IMG/VR virus record: IMGVR_UViG_3300031857_000599
Location: 1-36,703 of that record
DNA: 36,703 bases
Source of the DNA: a virus
Reading direction: 5' to 3' (one strand)
Shown here in pieces: positions 9,512 through 28,608 of the stretch. The notes beneath the pieces are model-generated. The model was not told the origin of the DNA, did no database searches, and saw only the letters and a list, made by a program, of their open reading frames with translations. Each line of letters starts with the position of its first letter. Positions within the stretch are counted from its first letter, which is position 1. The position numbers were made by a program, and so were the translations under genes.

Positions 9512-12500
9512 TTATTTATTGTTAATTTGATTCTGTAAGTCTTCAACCTTGGCAGTTAAATCCTTGATTGCCTCAATTAATAAGGGAACTATTTTCTCAT
9601 AACGAACTGCCAGATATCCATTTTCTCTTGTTGTAACCGCTTCAGGAAGAACTTCAAGAACTTCTTGTGCAATTACACCAACATCATTTCCTTCTTTTTC
9701 TGATTTTTCATTCCAATCAAATGTGTTACCACTGATTGAAAGAACTTTACTCAGTGCATCAGGAATTGGAGTGATGTTATCCTTCAGTCTTTGGTCTGAA
9801 GTGAAGAATGCCGTGATGTCTCCGGTTACATTCAATGCACCTCCAATTAGGACATTTCCATTAGTCTTAAGTTCATTATTAGTGTCACAGAAGAGTGAGG
9901 CAGATCCAGTATTTCCTGCATTAAACAGAGCTAAATCACCACCATTATTCACTTGTATTGCAGTGCCACCGCCACCACCATTAACTGTTAAAGTTCCTGT
10001 TAATGTAGTGTTTCCAGTTACGGATAAAGTAGATAAAAGATTGGTCGCTCCCGTAACAGATATTGTAGACTGGAATGTAGTTGTTCCCGTGACAGTTATG
10101 TTTCCAGAAATTCCAGCATTTCCACCAACATTTAAATTCTTGGCAATACCAATTCCACCAGAATAAACTGCAGATCCATCACTGATAGTAGTTGATTGCG
10201 CTGCGTTTGTTACCTTAAGTAGACTATCAACAGTTACTACATCATTTAATTTAACCTCATTGTTAAAGGTTACCGGACCATCAAACTGAGATAGAATTGT
10301 TCCAGAATTTCCACCCTCTACTAGAAGTCTTTCTTTAACCGTAACTTCATCATAAACCACACTCAATCTAGAAGGATCTAGTCCAGTGATAGTTGGTGTT
10401 GGAATTGCAAATGTAGTTTGTTGACCACTAGATGCTGAATACTTGGTATTTCCAATATAAAAGTCACCATCATTATTCATTCCAGTGTAAATTATACTAC
10501 CACCCGATCTTTGTTGTGACTGTACAAGATAAGATTCTTTCTCTGAAAGTGATTTTAATTGAACTTGAGGAAGACCAGTAGAATAGTTTCCAGGTCCATA
10601 TCCAAGATATTCAAAAGTATGTCCAGATGCACGAAGAATGGATGGTCTACGGAATTCAATTGGTAGGACTTTAATCTTCTTAATAAGTGAACCTGTAGTA
10701 TGTTCAGCAATAATTGTTCCAAGAACTCCACGTAAAACTGTAATTTTATTAGATGGAGAACCACTTAAAGTGCTCTTGGCAATTCTCATAATTTCAGAAT
10801 CAATCTGAATATATGATCCTATTTCAAATCGTTTTGTTGTACTAATTCCAGAAACTGGAGATGAAACACTAAATGATGTCTCGCTCGATGATGCGGTAAT
10901 AGTTTGTTCTAGTATTAGAACTTCATTATTGAACATAATGACATCTCTAACACCTAGATTCTCGCCACCAGAATCTGAGAGACCTTCATTTGCGGCAAAT
11001 CCAAGTTTATAAATGTAACTTGGTGTGGTATTAAATGCACCATCTATTTCTGAATTAAAGCTGGTAACACTTAATCTATCATTAACAATAAAATCTCCTA
11101 GATTATTATTACTAGCATCGAGTACTCTGAATTTATTTCCTGTTAATAATCCATGCGCTCTAGTGGTTGTAAATGTCGCTATTCCAACAACAGAGTTATA
11201 AACTACAGAACCACTTAAATCAGTTTTTCTACTTACAACAACACCATATTGACCGAGTGCAACATATGGGTCACCAATGGTAGATGCAATAGTGATTCTA
11301 TCTCTATCTGGAACTGTTGAAATTACTCCATAATGATCTTGATATGTGCTAATTCCAGTGAATTGAACTACATTTCCTATAGCTGTGGAAATTCCTGTTG
11401 CCGCAAGAGTAATTGTTGCGTTTGCTGCTCCACCAATCTTAGTGGTATCAAAGTAAAGAACCTGCCCATTAGCATATCCAGAACCAGGAGATGTAATATC
11501 TGCAGCAACAACGGCATTGCTGCTTATAGTAACTCTTGCGGTTGCACCTTTCCAAGAAGTTAATGCTGCATTATCATAAAGTTTTACATTATAGAAAGTT
11601 CCGTTGGTTTTACCAGTTCCACCAGATAGAGCACTATATGTTACAATTCCAGAAAGATTATGGTCTTTTCTGAATACAACAGTCGTAATACCTACTGTAT
11701 TATTTCTTTGTGAGAACGATACTGCGACACCAACACCAAAGTCTTGCAAGAAAAGGTCTACAGTTTCTCTAGTGAGACTCTTCTTGAGGTCATTCGTTAC
11801 AACTTCACCTAGAGGAGCTCTTTTTGCGTATGTTTTTGTTGCTTGTGGATTATCATCAACGTTGTCGAGATCTAATTGTGGATAGAGGTCAACAATATTT
11901 TGACTATATTTTAGATTTGTGAATGTATCTTCCACAGGGTTTGTGGAATTTAAAACATATAAATGGTAGACTCCATCCTGACTATTCTTAATATAAGGAC
12001 TAATTACTTCATTTCTGTAGATATAATAATTGCTGAGAAGATCTCTTCTCTGGAATCTAGGTAGAGTTAGAGTTCTGTTACTTGTATCTGGGCTTGTGAA
12101 AGTTCCTGGGACACGAGTAACTCCAAATGTATCAACATTTGTATATTCAAATACTTGTGAGAAAGGAGTTGAAGTAACTACGAATTCACCATTGAACCCT
12201 TCATTTTCGGTAGCAAATGGATTTGCAGAACTCTGCACATTTAAAATGGTTACCTTTTCACCAACTTTTAAATTATGTGGAATCTCTGTTGTTACTCTAA
12301 TAGTAGATCCACTATAAGTACAGGAGCTGATAAATCTTGGATTTCTATTGTATTCAAAATCAGATGATTCTAAGGTTGTAATTGCAGGGTCAAAGTCACT
12401 TCTGAATCCAGTCTTACTTGACTCTTGAATAATAAATGCTACTGTAGGATCTTTAGTATTTTGTGCTTCTTTTGGAATGAAAACTCTCAGTTTATAAATC

Positions 12501-14884
12501 TTCTCGTCAATACTTCTACTGTCTGCAATTCTCTTGAAGTTGGGGATTGGAGATCTCACCCCAAGATTACTTACACCTAAAGTTCTCAATCCTTGATAGA
12601 TATCACTGTTTCTATTGGTATGAATATACCAGTTTGACCTAGTAGTATCAAATTGTATTGGATGCCCTGGATCGCCAGGATTTTTATCAGATACTCTACT
12701 TACAACTTTTAATCTAGTTCCACCATATATTTTAATTGCATTTGATAAAGTTGCATTTGTCGGTGATGATGCAAGTTTAATCGTTGTGGAACTATTGAAG
12801 ATTACATAATACTTTGTTTCTGGATTAATATTTTCTGGAAGGTCTCCAGTGTCGCTGAATATTCTAACTGATTCCCCAGTGTATAATCCATGTGGAACTC
12901 CCCCAAGATTTAAAATATTATTGGTTGGACCAGAAGCTACTTGATATACTTTTTCACTAGTGAAGTTTCCATAAGAGACTGTTCCACCGATTGAAGAAAC
13001 TGCAAATTCATTAATAGAATCCGTCATCAAAATATTGGCAGTTACTGTACCACCAATGCCAGTAGGAAGATATAATTTATCGTTTACTCTTGCACCAACT
13101 CTAAATCCTTGAATATTAATTGGTGGTGTATCGTCTCTTGAAGTAAATCCAAACAGATACAGGTGACTGGTAATACCAACGGCAGTTGTTAATCCAACAT
13201 CAAACGATAACCAGTCAATGTCAGATTCTTCTCTTATAACTGCTCTAGGAGCAATAATTGAGGTTATGACTGCAGTATTATCCTTTTCAAACGCTTCATT
13301 CTTAAATCCCTCAGCATTCAGAGCAATTTGCCCAAAGTTAGAGTTTGAGTTAGTGATAGATCCATCACCACCACTTAGAGCGTCAAAGTGTTTATTATAT
13401 CCGATTGCGAAGACAGAAACAATCTGAATGAACGAATCATTTGATAGTTTAATATGACTTGTTTCCCATCCTGGTCTGTAAATAGCATCAGAATCTAGGT
13501 GATATGCCTGAGTTATATCTGTGGATGTTGCTCCCGATGATAAATCTTGACCTGTTACACGATTAATGGGATTGATTCCTTCATAAACTCTAGAAGATTG
13601 ATTGTACTTTACAAATGCTCTATCGTCTTTTTGAAGTGAAACACCAGTAAATTGAGCAACAACCATTGAACGGAATCCGCTCGCTCTGTCACCATCAGCG
13701 TGCATTCCATTCATACCCCAAACCGAACGTAAGGAGCAGTTGAATACGTATGGAGATGCTCCACTAACCGTATCACTCTCAATCGTTACGGTTGCACCAC
13801 CAGGGTTAGGAGTTGCTTGTAGAGTAGGACTGACAACTGGAAGAATATAAGTAAATTCTGTGTCAGATAATATTGTTTGTACTTTTGTTGAAATATTATA
13901 ATCTCGTGCCGTTACACCATTAATTTTAATGGGTGTTCCAGCAGTAAACTTATGGTCTACTGATGTAGTTACGGTAACAACGTTTCCTGGTGTAAATCCA
14001 TCACCAGAAACAATTTTAGAAATATTAATTGGGTCTGGAGCAAATGCACCAACAATTTCCCATTCAGGTCTTTGTTTCGTAAATCCTAGTGTTGCGGTTG
14101 GATACTTCTGGTCAATATTTCTACCTGAAGCTTCATTATATGCATTAGAGACCTTGCTATAATACATGTCAAGGTCAGTTAGATCATAACCAATTACTTT
14201 GTTGACGCCATCAGCATACTCAAAGCAAGTCAGTTTGTGGTGTGAGAATGTTGGTGCTGCAGAGTTTGAGATTGAAAAGTCTGAGGAATCTGTATAAACC
14301 AGTGAAGATTCTAGACCATCAAAGAAAGACATTTGCCAAAAATAACAGGCACCAGTAATTCTTAGAATAGCTGATGCCCTTACATTCGCATCAGTTGGAT
14401 TAGGTACGTATAGAGGTCTTACTTTTGTCTTTCTTAAGTCTAGACCAACAATAGAAGTTCCTCTAGGTACAATCGTACCACCATAAACACTATTAAACTT
14501 ATAAAGAATATTATTTCTTTGTAAGATATCAAAGTTTGATGTTAAGGTAAGTGATAATTCTGTAGTCGCATTAAAAACTGTTCCAGACGGAGCAACAGCT
14601 TTTACTCCACCATCATCTTTAAGTGCAAATCCTGGTCTGTTATCTATAAGGTGCTCACCAGGAAGCAGAAGGATGGTTGTTTTTTCTGTAATATCATTAT
14701 CATTACCTCTCAGATATGAAAATCTAGCAGATTCTAACAGTGCTCTTTGAATTGTTTTAAAGGGTTGCGAAAGAGCGTTTCCCTGATTAGTAATACTGTC
14801 GGTTGCGTTAAGATCACTAGGACTTACGTATAAAATTCGACCATCAGTATTTTTGATAAAATTGTCAAGTCTATTAAGAGGCAT
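9512..14884 (-). CDS. giant tail fibre with C-terminal peptidase S74 chaperone
   Basis: 1790 residues. The first 130 residues (YVSPSDLNATDS, then NALSQPFKTIQRALLESARF) look like the start of a right-handed beta-helix. A long beta-rich central part follows; residues about 1580-1670 hold short repeats such as TVTGTTTFQSTISVTGATN. The end is a peptidase S74 intramolecular chaperone: SDQRLKDNI with the Ser1696/Lys1701 pair, then FDW, GVIAQEVLEVLPE, LAVRYEKIVPLLIEAI and a coiled coil. In endosialidase-type fibres this domain folds the trimer and cuts itself off before the Ser. Made from the late promoter at 14917-14924. Confidence 0.85.
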   Translation of the reverse strand: MPLNRLDNFIKNTDGRILYVSPSDLNATDSITNQGNALSQPFKTIQRALLESARFSYLRGNDNDITEKTTILLLPGEHLIDNRPGFALKDDGGVKAVAPSGTVFNATTELSLTLTSNFDILQRNNILYKFNSVYGGTIVPRGTSIVGLDLRKTKVRPLYVPNPTDANVRASAILRITGACYFWQMSFFDGLESSLVYTDSSDFSISNSAAPTFSHHKLTCFEYADGVNKVIGYDLTDLDMYYSKVSNAYNEASGRNIDQKYPTATLGFTKQRPEWEIVGAFAPDPINISKIVSGDGFTPGNVVTVTTSVDHKFTAGTPIKINGVTARDYNISTKVQTILSDTEFTYILPVVSPTLQATPNPGGATVTIESDTVSGASPYVFNCSLRSVWGMNGMHADGDRASGFRSMVVAQFTGVSLQKDDRAFVKYNQSSRVYEGINPINRVTGQDLSSGATSTDITQAYHLDSDAIYRPGWETSHIKLSNDSFIQIVSVFAIGYNKHFDALSGGDGSITNSNSNFGQIALNAEGFKNEAFEKDNTAVITSIIAPRAVIREESDIDWLSFDVGLTTAVGITSHLYLFGFTSRDDTPPINIQGFRVGARVNDKLYLPTGIGGTVTANILMTDSINEFAVSSIGGTVSYGNFTSEKVYQVASGPTNNILNLGGVPHGLYTGESVRIFSDTGDLPENINPETKYYVIFNSSTTIKLASSPTNATLSNAIKIYGGTRLKVVSRVSDKNPGDPGHPIQFDTTRSNWYIHTNRNSDIYQGLRTLGVSNLGVRSPIPNFKRIADSRSIDEKIYKLRVFIPKEAQNTKDPTVAFIIQESSKTGFRSDFDPAITTLESSDFEYNRNPRFISSCTYSGSTIRVTTEIPHNLKVGEKVTILNVQSSANPFATENEGFNGEFVVTSTPFSQVFEYTNVDTFGVTRVPGTFTSPDTSNRTLTLPRFQRRDLLSNYYIYRNEVISPYIKNSQDGVYHLYVLNSTNPVEDTFTNLKYSQNIVDLYPQLDLDNVDDNPQATKTYAKRAPLGEVVTNDLKKSLTRETVDLFLQDFGVGVAVSFSQRNNTVGITTVVFRKDHNLSGIVTYSALSGGTGKTNGTFYNVKLYDNAALTSWKGATARVTISSNAVVAADITSPGSGYANGQVLYFDTTKIGGAANATITLAATGISTAIGNVVQFTGISTYQDHYGVISTVPDRDRITIASTIGDPYVALGQYGVVVSRKTDLSGSVVYNSVVGIATFTTTRAHGLLTGNKFRVLDASNNNLGDFIVNDRLSVTSFNSEIDGAFNTTPSYIYKLGFAANEGLSDSGGENLGVRDVIMFNNEVLILEQTITASSSETSFSVSSPVSGISTTKRFEIGSYIQIDSEIMRIAKSTLSGSPSNKITVLRGVLGTIIAEHTTGSLIKKIKVLPIEFRRPSILRASGHTFEYLGYGPGNYSTGLPQVQLKSLSEKESYLVQSQQRSGGSIIYTGMNNDGDFYIGNTKYSASSGQQTTFAIPTPTITGLDPSRLSVVYDEVTVKERLLVEGGNSGTILSQFDGPVTFNNEVKLNDVVTVDSLLKVTNAAQSTTISDGSAVYSGGIGIAKNLNVGGNAGISGNITVTGTTTFQSTISVTGATNLLSTLSVTGNTTLTGTLTVNGGGGGTAIQVNNGGDLALFNAGNTGSASLFCDTNNELKTNGNVLIGGALNVTGDITAFFTSDQRLKDNITPIPDALSKVLSISGNTFDWNEKSEKEGNDVGVIAQEVLEVLPEAVTTRENGYLAVRYEKIVPLLIEAIKDLTAKVEDLQNQINNK
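9513..9520 (-). promoter_or_regulatory. late promoter AATAAATA
   Basis: Minus strand AATAAATAATTAAAAAACATC, 14 bases before the 801-residue fibre gene; it overlaps the TAA stop of the S74 fibre gene. Confidence 0.5.
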
Positions 14885-22837: not shown

Positions 22838-24177
22838 TTGTTATTCGTTCCGTAACGTCCAAAAGTGTCTCTAATCAATTTCATAGAAGTGTATGATGCA
22901 GTAGAATCAAAATGATGACATAGTTCTTTAATCATATATAGACCGCTTTGGTCTTTATCATATTCTTCTTTATTGGATCTAGTTATAGTTGGAAACTTAC
23001 ATGAAATCACATCACCAGCTTTTAGATTAGTATTCAATGGAATCATCATATTCAAAGTCTGAGTAAACAATAAGTTATATCTCATAATTGCCTGAGATTG
23101 ATATTTGTCAGGTTCTGCATTGGTTTCAATTGAGACATCTTTTTCCATTGTTCCAACATCAAGGATGCCAGTTAAAAATCTCGTCGGAGTTTTTCCAAGG
23201 TCTACATCAGAATCACTTGAAATTTTAGGTAATGTCACCGATTGCCCAAGATTTTTTGCCTTTCCTGCATAATCTTCTAGTTTAAAAAGACCCTTTTGGG
23301 GACTAGTGAATTCGAATGTTAATGGATTATAAAACATCCTATAACTAGAATAAGTTCCCATTCTTAACTTTTCAATTAAGTTTTGGTTTTGTTCTGTATT
23401 GTAACTTAAGATTTTGAAATCATTTGAGGGTAAATCAGAAGTTCCTTCGTATTCAACTGATGATTGATTGACCTCGGTAAATGTATATTCTGCAATAGGG
23501 TCTTGTGATATTAACTTATCCAATGACCTAAATTGAAATCCGTCTTGTGTCTGATAGAATACGAATCCAGCGGTTGCATCTCCTGAAGATTCTGGTACTG
23601 CCTTAGATGCCAACCATACCAAAACACTAAAGGGCTTCTTCATATTTCCCAAAAACCCATACTTATTTGATGATTTATCAATAGTTCCAATCTGAGATGT
23701 TTTAAGATAGTTTTTTAAAATATCATTTACAGATTCATCTATTGTTGATGTAACTGGATATTTTTTACCTACTCTAGATGTTTCATTTGCAAATGCTTCA
23801 CGAGAAACTAGATGAAGTGTGAATGATTCTCTTTGAGTATCTGAGATAATATCACTAATACTTGAAACATAAAAATATCTTGTGGCATCCGTAGAAAAAT
23901 CTAGTCCTTTATTTGTACTTGAATTTGCCGCAATTTTAATTGATACTCTTTCTGCACCTCTTAGAGGTAAACCATTATAAATTGATTGCTTCTCACCACT
24001 ATCTTCAGAAGCAATCGTATCACCACCATTGATAATTCTCAATTTAGCAGTAATAATTGGAGAGAAAATATCCTCATAATAATCAATAGATACTGTACCA
24101 ACTCTAAGATCAATTGTTTTTTCCTGATCGTTAGACTCAATTATAATTTCTTCGTAAATAGATTGTTTTGTTGACAT
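22834..24177 (-). CDS. 27: baseplate hub protein gp27-like
   Basis: 447 residues. N-terminal IDYYEDIFSPIITAKLRIIN and the C-terminal block GLYMIKELCHHFDSTASYTS followed by MKLIRDTFG fit the gp27-like hub family of T4-like cyanophages. The protein should form the trimeric ring that links the spike (gp5) to the tail tube. It lies directly upstream of gp5 with an ATGA overlap. T4 gp27 is about 390 residues, so this version is slightly longer. Confidence 0.75.
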   Translation of the reverse strand: MSTKQSIYEEIIIESNDQEKTIDLRVGTVSIDYYEDIFSPIITAKLRIINGGDTIASEDSGEKQSIYNGLPLRGAERVSIKIAANSSTNKGLDFSTDATRYFYVSSISDIISDTQRESFTLHLVSREAFANETSRVGKKYPVTSTIDESVNDILKNYLKTSQIGTIDKSSNKYGFLGNMKKPFSVLVWLASKAVPESSGDATAGFVFYQTQDGFQFRSLDKLISQDPIAEYTFTEVNQSSVEYEGTSDLPSNDFKILSYNTEQNQNLIEKLRMGTYSSYRMFYNPLTFEFTSPQKGLFKLEDYAGKAKNLGQSVTLPKISSDSDVDLGKTPTRFLTGILDVGTMEKDVSIETNAEPDKYQSQAIMRYNLLFTQTLNMMIPLNTNLKAGDVISCKFPTITRSNKEEYDKDQSGLYMIKELCHHFDSTASYTSMKLIRDTFGRYGTNNK

Positions 24178-26099
24178 TATGTGTATGCTAAATCTAGAAG
24201 TAAGTGATTCTTGATAAGACTATTTAATACTTTTGATTTATCCATTGCTGGCATCATCATCGGTGCTGGCTGGGCACCTACATTTTGGGGAGCCTGCATT
24301 TGCTGTTGTGGAATATCATTTATTATAGCAACTTGTGGTGCTCTTCTAGAAGTAGAAGGAACTTGTTGCCCTGGTTTTGGTAGTGCTATTTGTGCTGGAG
24401 GAATTATATTGGCAGATGGAACTGCTGGTGCAACAAACCCTTGTGGAGGTTTTGTAGAGAAAATCATCACGTCTGTATATGGATCTGGATTTAACTCACC
24501 ACCATAAGAGGTTCCAGCCATGTTCCTAGTCGCTTCCATATGGATATGTGGTCCTGTTGACTTTCCACTATTTCCACTTCTGGCAAAAGGTCTTCCTGCT
24601 GGAATATCACCACTTTTGATTAATTGAGAACTCAGGTGGGCAAATCTAAGTCTTATATTCAATGAAGGAATTATAATGTCAGTGTAATACCCATATCCAC
24701 GTTGAAATCTTGCCTCCACAACTTTACAAGGATACTTACACGAAATGTAAGTTCCTATATTACAAGCTAAGTCAATTCCCTTATGTGCTCCACCTCTACT
24801 TAAATATGCATCACTTTTTATAGTAGATTGAACTTTAGCATTAACTGCAATTCTTTTACTTGGATTTATTGCTGCCGATGTAGGTGCTGATGTGGTTTGT
24901 GCTGGAGTTGGTTGTGCTGGAGTTGGTTGTGATACTGATGTACCCAGTGACTTTTGGTACACGTTCTGCACTGACTTCAAACCTTTAGTTGGTTGATCCA
25001 GTCCAATTGTTTTTCCAGGGAATGAAGCCCATTGTCTACCTAGAAAGGAAGATACTTTTGGACTCATTCCTTCTTTTGCTAACAATTCTTGAGTAACACC
25101 ATATTGTCTAGCTAATTCTATGGCAGCTTTATCTTGATTTGCTGGACTAAAATCTTTTAATCCAAGTTTTCTAGCAAGTCCGTCCCAAGTAGTACTCAAA
25201 AACTGATATCTTCCTGCAGCATCAGAAGCATAACCATTACTTCTTTGAATTTTTCTAGGGTGGTCTTCAAATCCACTGAATTGTTTTCCAGTGAACATTG
25301 TATTATATCCATCGTTTGGATATTTTGCGGTTCCTTCAGCGAAGGCAATTGAATCCAACATTGCTCTCTGCTCTTTTGTTCCAGCACCTCCACCACCAGT
25401 TGTAACAGTTCCAGTTCTTTCTCCAGCACCAACTTGTTCTGGAGCAACTGTTAAATCATCACCAAATCCTGCAGCAGTTTCACCTGGCATTTGTCCAAGA
25501 GGAGTTGTAACAGAATTAATACCATCACGTATTCCAGTTTGTAAATCTGAAAATGTATTCTGAAGATCAGTAAAGGCACTTTCAACTCTATTACTTGTAT
25601 CAAATATATCCAAAGTTACAAGGTTAGTTAAAACTGCCCCTAGTAGTCTTGTTGACCCACTGAATATTTTTCCAATATTTTTTACAAAATTTCCTAATAT
25701 TTGTCCAGCCGTTTTAATTCGAGTAATTAAATTCTCAGCCATTCTAATAATATTGGGTAAATTATAAACCAACCACCCAACAATAAAGGATCCTATGGCA
25801 TCCATTATCCTTCCAAGAAATCCTTTGGTACTATTTTCTACTATATTTTGTCCAGATTTAGCAACCGCTCCAATCTGACTTGCTTCAAGTGTATCTTCTG
25901 ATATTTTTCTCCTTGAATTTTCTCTCCTTTTATTAAATAACTTTTGATCATTTACTATTGCTTCTCTCTTTACCTTTGTCTTCTTAAATAATATTTTACC
26001 AATCCCAACAGAAGTTTTTGCAGCAGAACTGAAACCACTACGAATAGTTTTAAATTGATTTTGTATTTTTACAGATGGTTTTAAGGTAGTTACTGCCAT
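24177..26099 (-). CDS. tail lysin with GH104 lysozyme-like and M23 peptidase domains
   Basis: 640 residues. Residues 1-70 are basic; 93-160 hydrophobic and helical (AIGSFIVGWLVYNLPNIIRM). Residues about 243-365 resemble lambda R endolysin (GH104 transglycosylase): LDSIAFAEGT with probable catalytic Glu255, DHPRKI, AAGRYQFLSTTWD, LGLKDFSPANQD. Residues about 430-530 are an M23 metallopeptidase: HKGID (His439, Asp443), FAHLS (His488), GPHIHME (His518, His520). A linker rich in PTPAQ joins them. It would cut both glycan and peptide bonds of peptidoglycan during DNA entry. Neighbours are tape-measure-like protein and gp27, so it is a virion tail-tip enzyme, not a free endolysin. Confidence 0.85.
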   Translation of the reverse strand: MAVTTLKPSVKIQNQFKTIRSGFSSAAKTSVGIGKILFKKTKVKREAIVNDQKLFNKRRENSRRKISEDTLEASQIGAVAKSGQNIVENSTKGFLGRIMDAIGSFIVGWLVYNLPNIIRMAENLITRIKTAGQILGNFVKNIGKIFSGSTRLLGAVLTNLVTLDIFDTSNRVESAFTDLQNTFSDLQTGIRDGINSVTTPLGQMPGETAAGFGDDLTVAPEQVGAGERTGTVTTGGGGAGTKEQRAMLDSIAFAEGTAKYPNDGYNTMFTGKQFSGFEDHPRKIQRSNGYASDAAGRYQFLSTTWDGLARKLGLKDFSPANQDKAAIELARQYGVTQELLAKEGMSPKVSSFLGRQWASFPGKTIGLDQPTKGLKSVQNVYQKSLGTSVSQPTPAQPTPAQTTSAPTSAAINPSKRIAVNAKVQSTIKSDAYLSRGGAHKGIDLACNIGTYISCKYPCKVVEARFQRGYGYYTDIIIPSLNIRLRFAHLSSQLIKSGDIPAGRPFARSGNSGKSTGPHIHMEATRNMAGTSYGGELNPDPYTDVMIFSTKPPQGFVAPAVPSANIIPPAQIALPKPGQQVPSTSRRAPQVAIINDIPQQQMQAPQNVGAQPAPMMMPAMDKSKVLNSLIKNHLLLDLAYT

Positions 26100-26100
26100 A

Positions 26101-27723
26101 TTACATTACAACATTGTAGTTTACTTGAGAATACAATGCATAAAAATTATCAGGATTGGAAGAATCTATAGAAGGAACATCACTTGCAGCGCCAGGTTGA
26201 GATGCTAATACAGTATCAGGTCTTCCCTGTGCCCCAGGAACAGAAGACATCATGATAACATTTGGCTTTGCTTCTGGTTCCGGACCAACCTTTGCAGCGG
26301 CACTTGGAACGCTTTGGGTTTGTGCTGGAGTAATAGATGCTGGTTGAGATTGTCCAGTTCCTCCCGATTCAACTGGTGCTGCAACTTCTCCAAATTCTGC
26401 AGGAGTAGAGAAATCCATGCCTTCTGGAACATCTTTCATTTTGCCAGGATCAAATGAAAGTTCTGCAGAAGATGGCATCATTGGTGTAGATGGAGTTGCA
26501 GTAGATGCAGGTTTTGCTGGTGCTGGCGCTGGTGCTGCTGCTGATGGTTCGTTGAATGCCTTTTCTTTTGCTGCTTTAGTTTTATCCCCCTGCTCAGTAA
26601 CTTGACCCACTCTTCTTTTGAGGGAATATGCATCTATTAACAGCGATACTGCAGTTCCTGGTCCGGCAAAAGTGCCAGCAATTCCAGATGCAAATTCTAA
26701 GCTAGCCCCAAATGGATCTCCGGCATATAATCGTTCTATACCAAATGCACCTCCAGCTAGTAGGCTTACTCCAGGAAACTTTTTGAATAATGATTTTCCT
26801 GCAGTTTCCGCACCTTCTTTGGCTATTTGTTTTCCTGCCGCTTGAGACGCTTCAGTTCCAACTGCTTTCGCTGTTGCAGTTGCTGCCGTTTCTGCTGCTT
26901 GAGTTCCAGTCACTTTTGAAATAATAGAAGTAGCGCCAGATGCTATACCTTTTCCAGCGGCAACAATTCCATTTGCTATGGCACCCAAACCTTTAAATAA
27001 TAATCCAACTCCACTCACCAGGAATTTGGCAAGTAATTTGGTTACTCCCGTTACAATTCCAATAATACCCCTAAAGGTTTTGTTAATTACTTGCAGTCCT
27101 TTAAATACTGCAGTAATACTACTTACAATAGTATTAAAAATCTGTTGAAGTAGATTTTGGTTGTTCTGGGAATCTGCCCTGAACATATCCAAAATATTAG
27201 TAGTCAACCATCCCAGTAAAAATATACTTAGAGCTTCTTGTAATTTTGCAAATATTGATTGTGCCTGTGCGGTTACTACTCTAATGGGTGCAAGTATAGC
27301 ATTTTGGAGTTTTTGCTCAAGTTGACTTTCCTTTCCTGCCCTTACACCTTCTTCTGTTAATTTAGTTTCTTGTAGTTGCTCTTGTATTTGCTGCTTTCTT
27401 TCTAGTTCTGCATCTGTAACTAATAATTTATTATTTTGTTTAAAGGAATTACCTAAATCCCTAACATTTACTGCAATTGTTTGTAAATTAGTCTGAATAT
27501 TTCCTAATTCTTTTTGAAATGCTACTATTGATTCTGATTGCGATTTCCTTAATGTTCCTACTTCTTTTTGAAGTTGTACAATAGTATTACTTTGTCTTAC
27601 TACGATTGCCGAAGTTTGAGGGTCTCCACCACCTCCACCGCCGCCACCGCTTATGACAGAACGAGAAACAGTTCTTGCCGCAACAGTAATAGTGGGTCCG
27701 ATTGGAGATGCTAGGCTAGCCAT
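26101..27723 (-). CDS. tape-measure-like tail protein
   Basis: 540 residues. Gly run near residues 25-32, a coiled coil about 45-140 (QLQKEVGTLRKSQSES), then long hydrophobic helical stretches about 160-290 (IFLLGWLTTNILDMF, GVTKLLAKFLVSGVGLLFKG) and an Ala/Pro-rich low-complexity C-terminus. This fits a tape-measure or hub length protein (role of T4 gp29), although it is short for that role. The LLGWLxxNILxM segment resembles FIVGWLVYNLPNIIRM of the lysin downstream, so both may line the tube together. It is directly preceded by the gp26/57-codon pair, the normal place of a tape-measure gene. Confidence 0.65.
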   Translation of the reverse strand: MASLASPIGPTITVAARTVSRSVISGGGGGGGGDPQTSAIVVRQSNTIVQLQKEVGTLRKSQSESIVAFQKELGNIQTNLQTIAVNVRDLGNSFKQNNKLLVTDAELERKQQIQEQLQETKLTEEGVRAGKESQLEQKLQNAILAPIRVVTAQAQSIFAKLQEALSIFLLGWLTTNILDMFRADSQNNQNLLQQIFNTIVSSITAVFKGLQVINKTFRGIIGIVTGVTKLLAKFLVSGVGLLFKGLGAIANGIVAAGKGIASGATSIISKVTGTQAAETAATATAKAVGTEASQAAGKQIAKEGAETAGKSLFKKFPGVSLLAGGAFGIERLYAGDPFGASLEFASGIAGTFAGPGTAVSLLIDAYSLKRRVGQVTEQGDKTKAAKEKAFNEPSAAAPAPAPAKPASTATPSTPMMPSSAELSFDPGKMKDVPEGMDFSTPAEFGEVAAPVESGGTGQSQPASITPAQTQSVPSAAAKVGPEPEAKPNVIMMSSVPGAQGRPDTVLASQPGAASDVPSIDSSNPDNFYALYSQVNYNVVM

Positions 27724-27889
27724 TCGCTTGATTCTTCAAGTTTTCTTCTTCAATGTACTGTTGAAGTAGTGAGATATAAACGTCTCTTTCCCACGGAATC
27801 ATATTTTCTAACTCCGTCAAAGAGTATTTATGATGCTGAATCAAAGCAAAATTTGTCTTGTAGTATGACTCAATACTTTCATGAGCCAT
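27716..27889 (-). CDS. 57-codon T-like ORF, probably a -1 frameshift extension of gp26
   Basis: 57 residues: MAHESIESYYKTNFALIQHH, then KYSLTELENMIPWERDVYIS, then LLQQYIEEENLKNQANG. The F-x-L-x-x-x-H-x-x-S-x-x-E-L-x-x-M-x-P-W-E-R pattern is that of the small second half (T part) of tail assembly chaperones. The ATG has a poor ribosome site (AGG one base away). In the -1 frame the ORF is open back through a T TTT TTC heptamer at the end of gp26, giving a 297-residue gp26 fusion. It overlaps the tape-measure start by 8 bases. Confidence 0.7.
   Translation of the reverse strand: MAHESIESYYKTNFALIQHHKYSLTELENMIPWERDVYISLLQQYIEEENLKNQANG
27825..27832 (-). promoter_or_regulatory. possible late promoter CATAAATA
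   Basis: Minus strand CATAAATACTC inside the 57-codon ORF, about 100 bases before the tape-measure gene. The box is perfect, but it may be coding sequence by chance. Confidence 0.3.
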
Positions 27890-27891
27890 AC

Positions 27892-28608
27892 CTACGCGAA
27901 AAAAGCCGATAGTCCCTCCAGCAGAACTTCACTTTCGACTCCAGTATTTGGATTTTTAATCTCAATAGTATGAGAAAGTTTCGGCATGGTTTCAAAGAAT
28001 TTTTCAATTTCTTTGAACTGTTTTGAACTTAACTGATCAAGAAACTCCATTACCTCTTTTTTAGTAAAGTCACTTGTATTCCAAGATTCTTCTTCATTAT
28101 AAATTTGCTCAATACATGAAGAAATCAAATCAAATGTATCATCAACACTAATATCTGTTGTTGAGAAATTCGATTTAACAAATTCGTCCATTGATGGATA
28201 CTTCATTCGCAAAGTTAAATTCTCATCTAAAACAATATCTCTATTATGTTCTTTGGGAACATGGACTCCAATATCATCTAGGTTAATTGAAACCGGAACC
28301 TGAGTAGTTTCATCATCTGGGCATGTGATAAGCACATCAACAGTTTCCCCAACTGACTTTCCACGAATATTTAAAAATAGATATTCGATGTCAAAAGTAG
28401 AAAGTTCATTAACTTTAATACCCTTCGAAAGAATGCAGTTAGTGATAACGTTCTTAACTGCAAGTGCGATTTGTTTAGGATCTTCACTTTCCATCGCAAT
28501 GATAAGAATTTTTTCTTCTTTGACTAGAAAAGGTCTATATCTAATTTTCTTTTTAATAGAAGGTAGTTCCAACTCATAAATTGGAGTTGCAATTCTTGGT
28601 AACGGCAT
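27892..28608 (-). CDS. 26: baseplate hub / tail assembly protein gp26-like
   Basis: 238 residues. It fits the T4 baseplate protein family that includes gp26 (PF12322 type): YELELPSIKKKIRYRPFLVK, then EEKILIIAMES, then NVITNCILS, then FDIEYLFLNIRGKSVGETV. In T4 this protein acts in hub assembly and is thought to be a chaperone-like factor. The last codons GCT TTT TTC GCG TAG hold a slippery heptamer that would shift ribosomes into the 57-codon ORF. A TCTAAATA late promoter (28640-28647) lies about 32 bases upstream. Confidence 0.8.
   Translation of the reverse strand: MPLPRIATPIYELELPSIKKKIRYRPFLVKEEKILIIAMESEDPKQIALAVKNVITNCILSKGIKVNELSTFDIEYLFLNIRGKSVGETVDVLITCPDDETTQVPVSINLDDIGVHVPKEHNRDIVLDENLTLRMKYPSMDEFVKSNFSTTDISVDDTFDLISSCIEQIYNEEESWNTSDFTKKEVMEFLDQLSSKQFKEIEKFFETMPKLSHTIEIKNPNTGVESEVLLEGLSAFFA
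27898..27919 (-). promoter_or_regulatory. programmed -1 frameshift signal
   Basis: Slippery heptamer T TTT TTC at 27898-27904 in the gp26 frame (X XXY YYZ), with a Shine-Dalgarno-like GGAGGG at 27914-27919, 9 bases before it, the spacing that stimulates -1 shifting in dnaX. The -1 frame continues CGC GTA GGT ATG into the 57-codon ORF. Confidence 0.7.

Follow-up and report, generated by a model that had tools for sequence, protein, structure and literature searches.

How many proteins are made from gene 26 of this T4-like cyanophage? In the window, by which we mean the entire stretch of 36,703 nucleotides of viral DNA that was analysed (IMG/VR record IMGVR_UViG_3300031857_000599), the gp26 reading frame stops just after a run of T nucleotides, and a second open reading frame (ORF) lies in the -1 frame across the stop codon. 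As argued below from comparative sequence analysis, one gene very probably gives rise to two tail-assembly chaperones (TACs), the short form gp26 and a 297-residue gp26-T fusion, by programmed -1 ribosomal frameshifting. The features concerned, all on the minus strand, are the following.

27892..28608, minus strand: zero-frame product gp26, the short ‘G-like’ form, 238 amino acids (Pfam T4_baseplate PF12322, PHROG 150)
27914..27919, minus strand: SD-like GGAGGG, candidate upstream stimulator, 9 nucleotides 5′ of the heptamer
27898..27904, minus strand: slippery heptamer T_TTT_TTC, in phase with gp26
27892..27894, minus strand: gp26 zero-frame stop codon TAG, read from the sequence
27860..27895, minus strand: putative RNA hairpin 3′ of the heptamer, from folding and covariation
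27716..27898, minus strand: -1 frame extension, the ‘T-like’ domain, 60 amino acids after the Phe-Phe of gp26 (PHROG 634)
27716..27889, minus strand: separate ORF of 57 amino acids with its own ATG, from the ORF listing
26101..27723, minus strand: next ORF, 540 amino acids, in a tape-measure-like position, identity unproven

The 3′ end of gp26 reads GAG GGA CTA TCG GCT TTT TTC GCG TAG, and from the heptamer the -1 frame runs open via CGC GTA GGT ATG to position 27716. The initial annotation had placed the end of gp26, the T TTT TTC heptamer at 27898-27904 and the GGAGGG correctly to the base, and translation through to 27716 bears out the 297-residue fusion that it predicted, whose junction is ...LSAFF-RVGMAHES.... 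A full-domain profile match (E value of 2.3e-76; residues 9-238 against profile positions 2-219 of 219) assigns gp26 to PF12322 / PHROG 150. PHROG 634 (‘baseplate hub assembly catalyst’) is the family matched by the 57-residue ORF, which also shows weak similarity to the C-terminal end of PHROG 150.

Gene 26 follows a tail-tube match and precedes the 540-residue ORF (27723-26101), which the end of the 57-residue ORF overlaps by 8 nucleotides. This had been described as an overlap with the start of the tape-measure gene; the overlap is real, but the tape-measure identity is not carried by any family, as family profile searches with the 540-residue ORF gave no match to a tape-measure family. In the 640-residue ORF two genes downstream of gp26 (24177-26099), an M23 peptidase domain is found along with matches to phage families of the endolysin/lysozyme type; its product is possibly a tail protein with domains for cell-wall degradation. 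Elsewhere in the window, a 1790-residue ORF (9512-14884) matches tail fiber families, and its C-terminal end has many matches to families of long-tail-fiber distal subunits.

A motif of the form X_XXY_YYZ is by itself weak evidence for recoding because such heptamers are common in the window, where 60 of any kind occur within 31 ORFs. In-phase TTTTTTC occurs as a single copy among the 9,846 codons of the window, three codons before a stop. The heptamer is significant because it is conserved across relatives. Among IMG/VR loci with ~69-100% gp26 identity, xxT TTT TTC precedes the gp26 stop in 80 of 80, and the T ORF, which could be placed in 79 near relatives, has the same relative frame (-1) in every one of them. 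When the comparison is widened to 166 distinct loci, which include cultured phages of other hosts, a single codon separates TTTTTTC from the gp26 stop in 154; the heptamer lies at a neighbouring position in two more, and TTTTTTT takes its place in five. The slip run, counted with these variants, is thus present in 161 of the 166. The heptamer is retained in phages of Stenotrophomonas, Acidovorax, Aeromonas (phage 65), Vibrio (6E35-1b, 1.081.O) and Rhizobium (IC12), even though their gp26 proteins are only ~21-31% identical to that of the window.

Phe-Phe is conserved in the protein and slippery heptamers are frequent, so one might suppose that the heptamer and the -1 frame reflect chance or protein-level conservation and nothing else. 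Codon usage within the same gene refutes this proposal. Among 101 non-redundant gp26 representatives (<85% identity), the terminal Phe-Phe is encoded by TTT-TTC in 100, versus 4 of 113 other Phe-Phe pairs in the same gene. Furthermore, T is the third base of the preceding codon in 100 of 100 cases, whichever of Ser, Ala, Asn, Asp or Gly this codon specifies; in gp26, only 31% of Ala codons are GCT. Conservation of the protein is therefore insufficient as an explanation for the locked TTT-TTC and the T before it, and we put the probability of this proposal at practically nil. The check proposed with the initial annotation was an alignment of this junction in relatives; in it, strong synonymous constraint accompanies a conserved heptamer, SD-like site and -1 frame. 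Within the window’s family we encountered neither a missing heptamer nor the two ORFs in unrelated frames, either of which that annotation had named as counting against a frameshift.

The slip run is absent from five of the 166 loci, one of which is a likely homopolymer error. Vibrio phages K393 (L087:2180-2230) and VAP7 (L093:2215-2260) and Aeromonas phage TSW001 (L091:2215-2290) lack the canonical heptamer and carry CTT TTC or GTT TTT CGC instead, yet their -1 frame leads without a stop from gp26 into a T-like ORF; K393 and VAP7 each have a single gp26 gene. In TSW001, a G+C-rich inverted repeat directly follows the stop codon. These three phages may use another slip site. In a Stenotrophomonas phage record (L181:2245-2262), T5C stands where its near-identical twin (L180) has T6C, and the gp26 frame is shifted. 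This is probably a homopolymer sequencing error, and we treat it as such because the twin keeps the full run.

The missing T in this record could also be taken as a sign that RNA polymerase slips on the homopolymer, such that a mixed population of mRNAs, some encoding the fusion, would be transcribed from the T6 run. A run of six T nucleotides is short for transcriptional slippage. Moreover, 99 of 100 sequences have exactly T6 and then C rather than a longer run, the phase of the run is locked, and it is flanked by an SD-like site and a hairpin. A fixed run, phase and flanks are the marks of a ribosomal shift, and we judge transcriptional slippage highly improbable.

The upstream flank is the GGAGGG, which we consider a candidate stimulator of frameshifting. 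At least 4 nucleotides of SD match are found within 24 nucleotides upstream in 98% of loci, compared to 34% of control windows. Of 97 sequences, 74 use GAG for the conserved Glu that supplies the SD-like GAGG, compared to 10-32% in other conserved Glu columns.

On the 3′ side of the heptamer, the RNA of the window is predicted to form a hairpin that was not among the features listed in the initial annotation. Its upper stem, UAUGGCUCA/UGAGUCAUA, pairs positions 27890-27882 with 27872-27864, and GUAG/CUAC can form an optional lower stem. The predicted folding energy is -17.9 kcal/mol for 75 nucleotides (z of -2.5). Across the window’s clade, the 42 nucleotides past the heptamer average -13.4 kcal/mol, versus -4.65 for control windows, and the upper stem is kept in nearly all of the clade’s 43 sequences. 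Base pair 21-35 alternates between U-A and G-C, with pairing possible in 41 of 43 sequences; mapped on the gp26 tree, its state changes at least 13 times. Only three well-supported independent pairs of sequences are available for the U-A (T-A)/G-C switch, all of them concordant, and because three are too few, the tree-based case for independence falls short of significance. The data are thus suggestive of a switch that occurred independently across the tree, and recombination is possible.

A different hairpin is present in the sister clade, where changes on both sides are seen at all five pairs. In clade C, a search for a conserved hairpin found none, while the heptamer is kept there; the hairpin is therefore lineage-specific and the heptamer general. 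An Rfam search returned nothing beyond one sub-threshold snoRNA match. We consider the hairpin a putative second stimulator beside the SD-like site. The arrangement resembles that of Escherichia coli dnaX, in which an SD-like sequence lies ~10 nucleotides upstream of a slippery heptamer and a hairpin follows a few nucleotides downstream. However, the dnaX shift occurs at A_AAA_AAG and yields the shorter product, whereas the shift in the window would yield the longer one.

A further question is whether the T domain could be made without any shift. If ribosomes terminate at the TAG and reinitiate at an ATG located 2 nucleotides past the stop, a free protein of 57 amino acids would result and the T run would be incidental. 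The position of this ATG invites such a reading, as does the occurrence of ATG within the first nine -1 codons of 119 of 155 loci, and sequence records annotate the -1 ORF as a separate gene, with those of relatives labelling it ‘gp51 / baseplate hub assembly catalyst’ or leaving it unannotated. However, in 29 of the 155 loci, spread over several parts of the tree, none of the first nine -1 codons is ATG, GTG or TTG, yet the T domain is intact. For these phages, the conserved T domain therefore seems reachable only by shifting. In all complete cases the -1 ORF is 55-68 amino acids long.

Reinitiation also offers no explanation for the synonymous lock on T_TTT_TTC, which extends to the last base of the codon before Phe-Phe. 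The ATG of the 57-codon ORF is enclosed and paired by the conserved hairpin in the window, the GGAGGG lies 24 nucleotides away from it, and the T domain is physically fused in T4-type gp51 (see below). As the only route to the T domain, reinitiation is very unlikely, and frameshifting remains the reading that we favor. Because an ATG is retained at the start of the -1 ORF in most near relatives, some free T protein is possibly also made. Among the loci that lack a start codon are those of ACG-2014b and ACG-2014j, in which no gene is annotated at this place; in the records of ACG-2014b, S-CAM1, ACG-2014j and VmeM-32 (L083, L082, L098 and L092, respectively) the T domain is unannotated and hidden in the interval that separates gp26 from the following gene.

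Comparison with T4 and its kin bears on how the two parts belong together. The T4-type gp51 of phage HY126 (250 amino acids) matches PF12322 over residues 1-201 and PHROG 634 over residues 147-248, and T4-type gp26 (208 amino acids) matches PF12322 only. T4 and HY126 each carry two PF12322 genes, which are divergently transcribed, and in T4 the PHROG 634 match sits in the gp51 frame. Each of the 14 other records searched (14/14) carries one PF12322 gene, 12 of them with the heptamer or its T7 version. The products that these phages appear to make from a single gene are thus divided between two genes in T4. The window would encode a gp51-like protein only if the shift occurs, because the second part is present only in the -1 frame.

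From these matches, the ~57-codon ‘gp51’ of cyanophages appears to be the counterpart of only the C-terminal part of T4 gp51. Frameshifting would be the ancestral state, and we lean towards a scheme in which the ~57-codon ‘gp51’ entries of cyanophage records are C-terminal extensions of gp26, frameshifting with an SD-like site and lineage-specific covarying hairpins is ancestral in the T4 superfamily, and T4 and its close kin escaped it by duplication into gp26 and a fused gp51.

Frameshifting in TAC genes is well precedented. In lambda G/GT and other TACs with -1 shifts (Xu, Hendrix & Duda 2004, as cited in PMC9024508 and PMC10885494), short and long forms come from one locus, the shift being placed close to where the first ORF ends, and the next ORF lies in the tape-measure position, as in the window. 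The window differs from lambda G/GT in its family (PF12322), its heptamer (T_TTT_TTC) and its setting in T4-type contractile-tail phages, and its case is known from sequence. In Pseudomonas phage Adele and the Vandenendeviridae and Andersonviridae (PMC12846349), a myophage TAC gene likewise has a conserved poly-T -1 site, and the -1 frame is open in all relatives as it is here; the motif is GTTTTT, the phage families are others, and the likeness to gp26 is by description only. Closest are the T4-like TACs, which belong to the window’s gene family, with gp26 as the short form and gp51 as the long form. T4 encodes these forms in two separate genes with divergent transcription, whereas the window has one gene and a -1 ORF.

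The initial annotation held that such a shift was undescribed for T4-type gp26, which is probably wrong. Vladimirov, Gautam & Davidson 2022 (Virology 566:9-15) identified T4-like TACs, according to citations in PMC10885494 and PMC12846349, and its title and those citations suggest that gp26 and gp51 are the proteins named there. PMC12846349 credits the same work with poly-T slippery sequences known in the TAC-N genes of T4-like phages, and PMC10885494 states that a short gene plus a fused long gene takes the place of frameshifting in some T4-like phages. Because of these statements in the two citing papers, the principle of frameshifting in T4-like TACs has probably already been published. In a literature search that covered Vladimirov et al. 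2022 through citing papers, no description of the cyanophage gp26 slip site, SD-like element or hairpins was recognised.

The initial annotation had proposed a G/GT-type chaperone pair made by a -1 shift of gp26. The shift is supported by conservation, the codon lock, relatives without start codons, the hairpin and the gp51 fusion, but the chaperone function comes from elsewhere: its family, gene position and published work on T4-like TACs suggest this role for gp26, and chaperone or cofactor roles have been proposed for T4 gp26 and gp51 (PMC9024508). An AlphaFold2 model of gp26 is confident, with a pLDDT of 88.9. A fold search of the PDB with this model gave no significant match; the HK97 TAC (2ob9_B) was ranked 9th with a non-significant E value of 1.6 and a probability of 0.54. 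A PDB sequence search with gp26 gave no match, and single-protein scans with distant gp26 members gave few loci or none.

Several features expected of a programmed -1 frameshift are thus found together: an X_XXY_YYZ heptamer in the zero frame, constraint beyond the protein level, and a -1 frame that is open, conserved and coding across relatives. At the sequence level, stimulatory elements are represented by the SD-like site and by a hairpin in the window’s clade and the sister clade, absent in clade C. Site, phase, frame, putative stimulators and T domain are conserved; that the shift occurs, its rate and the ratio of short to long product we infer from this pattern. Most ribosomes would end at the TAG and produce gp26 of 238 amino acids. 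For a fraction, the hairpin and the SD-like GGAGGG would cause a pause, followed by a one-base backward slip on U_UUU_UUC; the stop would then be bypassed and ~60 residues added to give the 297-residue gp26-T fusion. Gene 26 is thus predicted to yield a short and a C-terminally extended form, and the many copies of the former and few copies of the latter would constitute the G/GT pair for tail assembly around the tape measure.

If frameshifting operates in this manner, the set of proteins made from a core tail gene becomes testable in hundreds of sequenced cyanophages, and the hairpin and SD-like site provide concrete positions for reporter work in cyanobacteria. Frameshifting would explain why ORFs of ~57 codons are annotated apart as ‘gp51’ or omitted. 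Finally, the same protein pair would be reached by recoding in one group of phages and by two genes in a related group.
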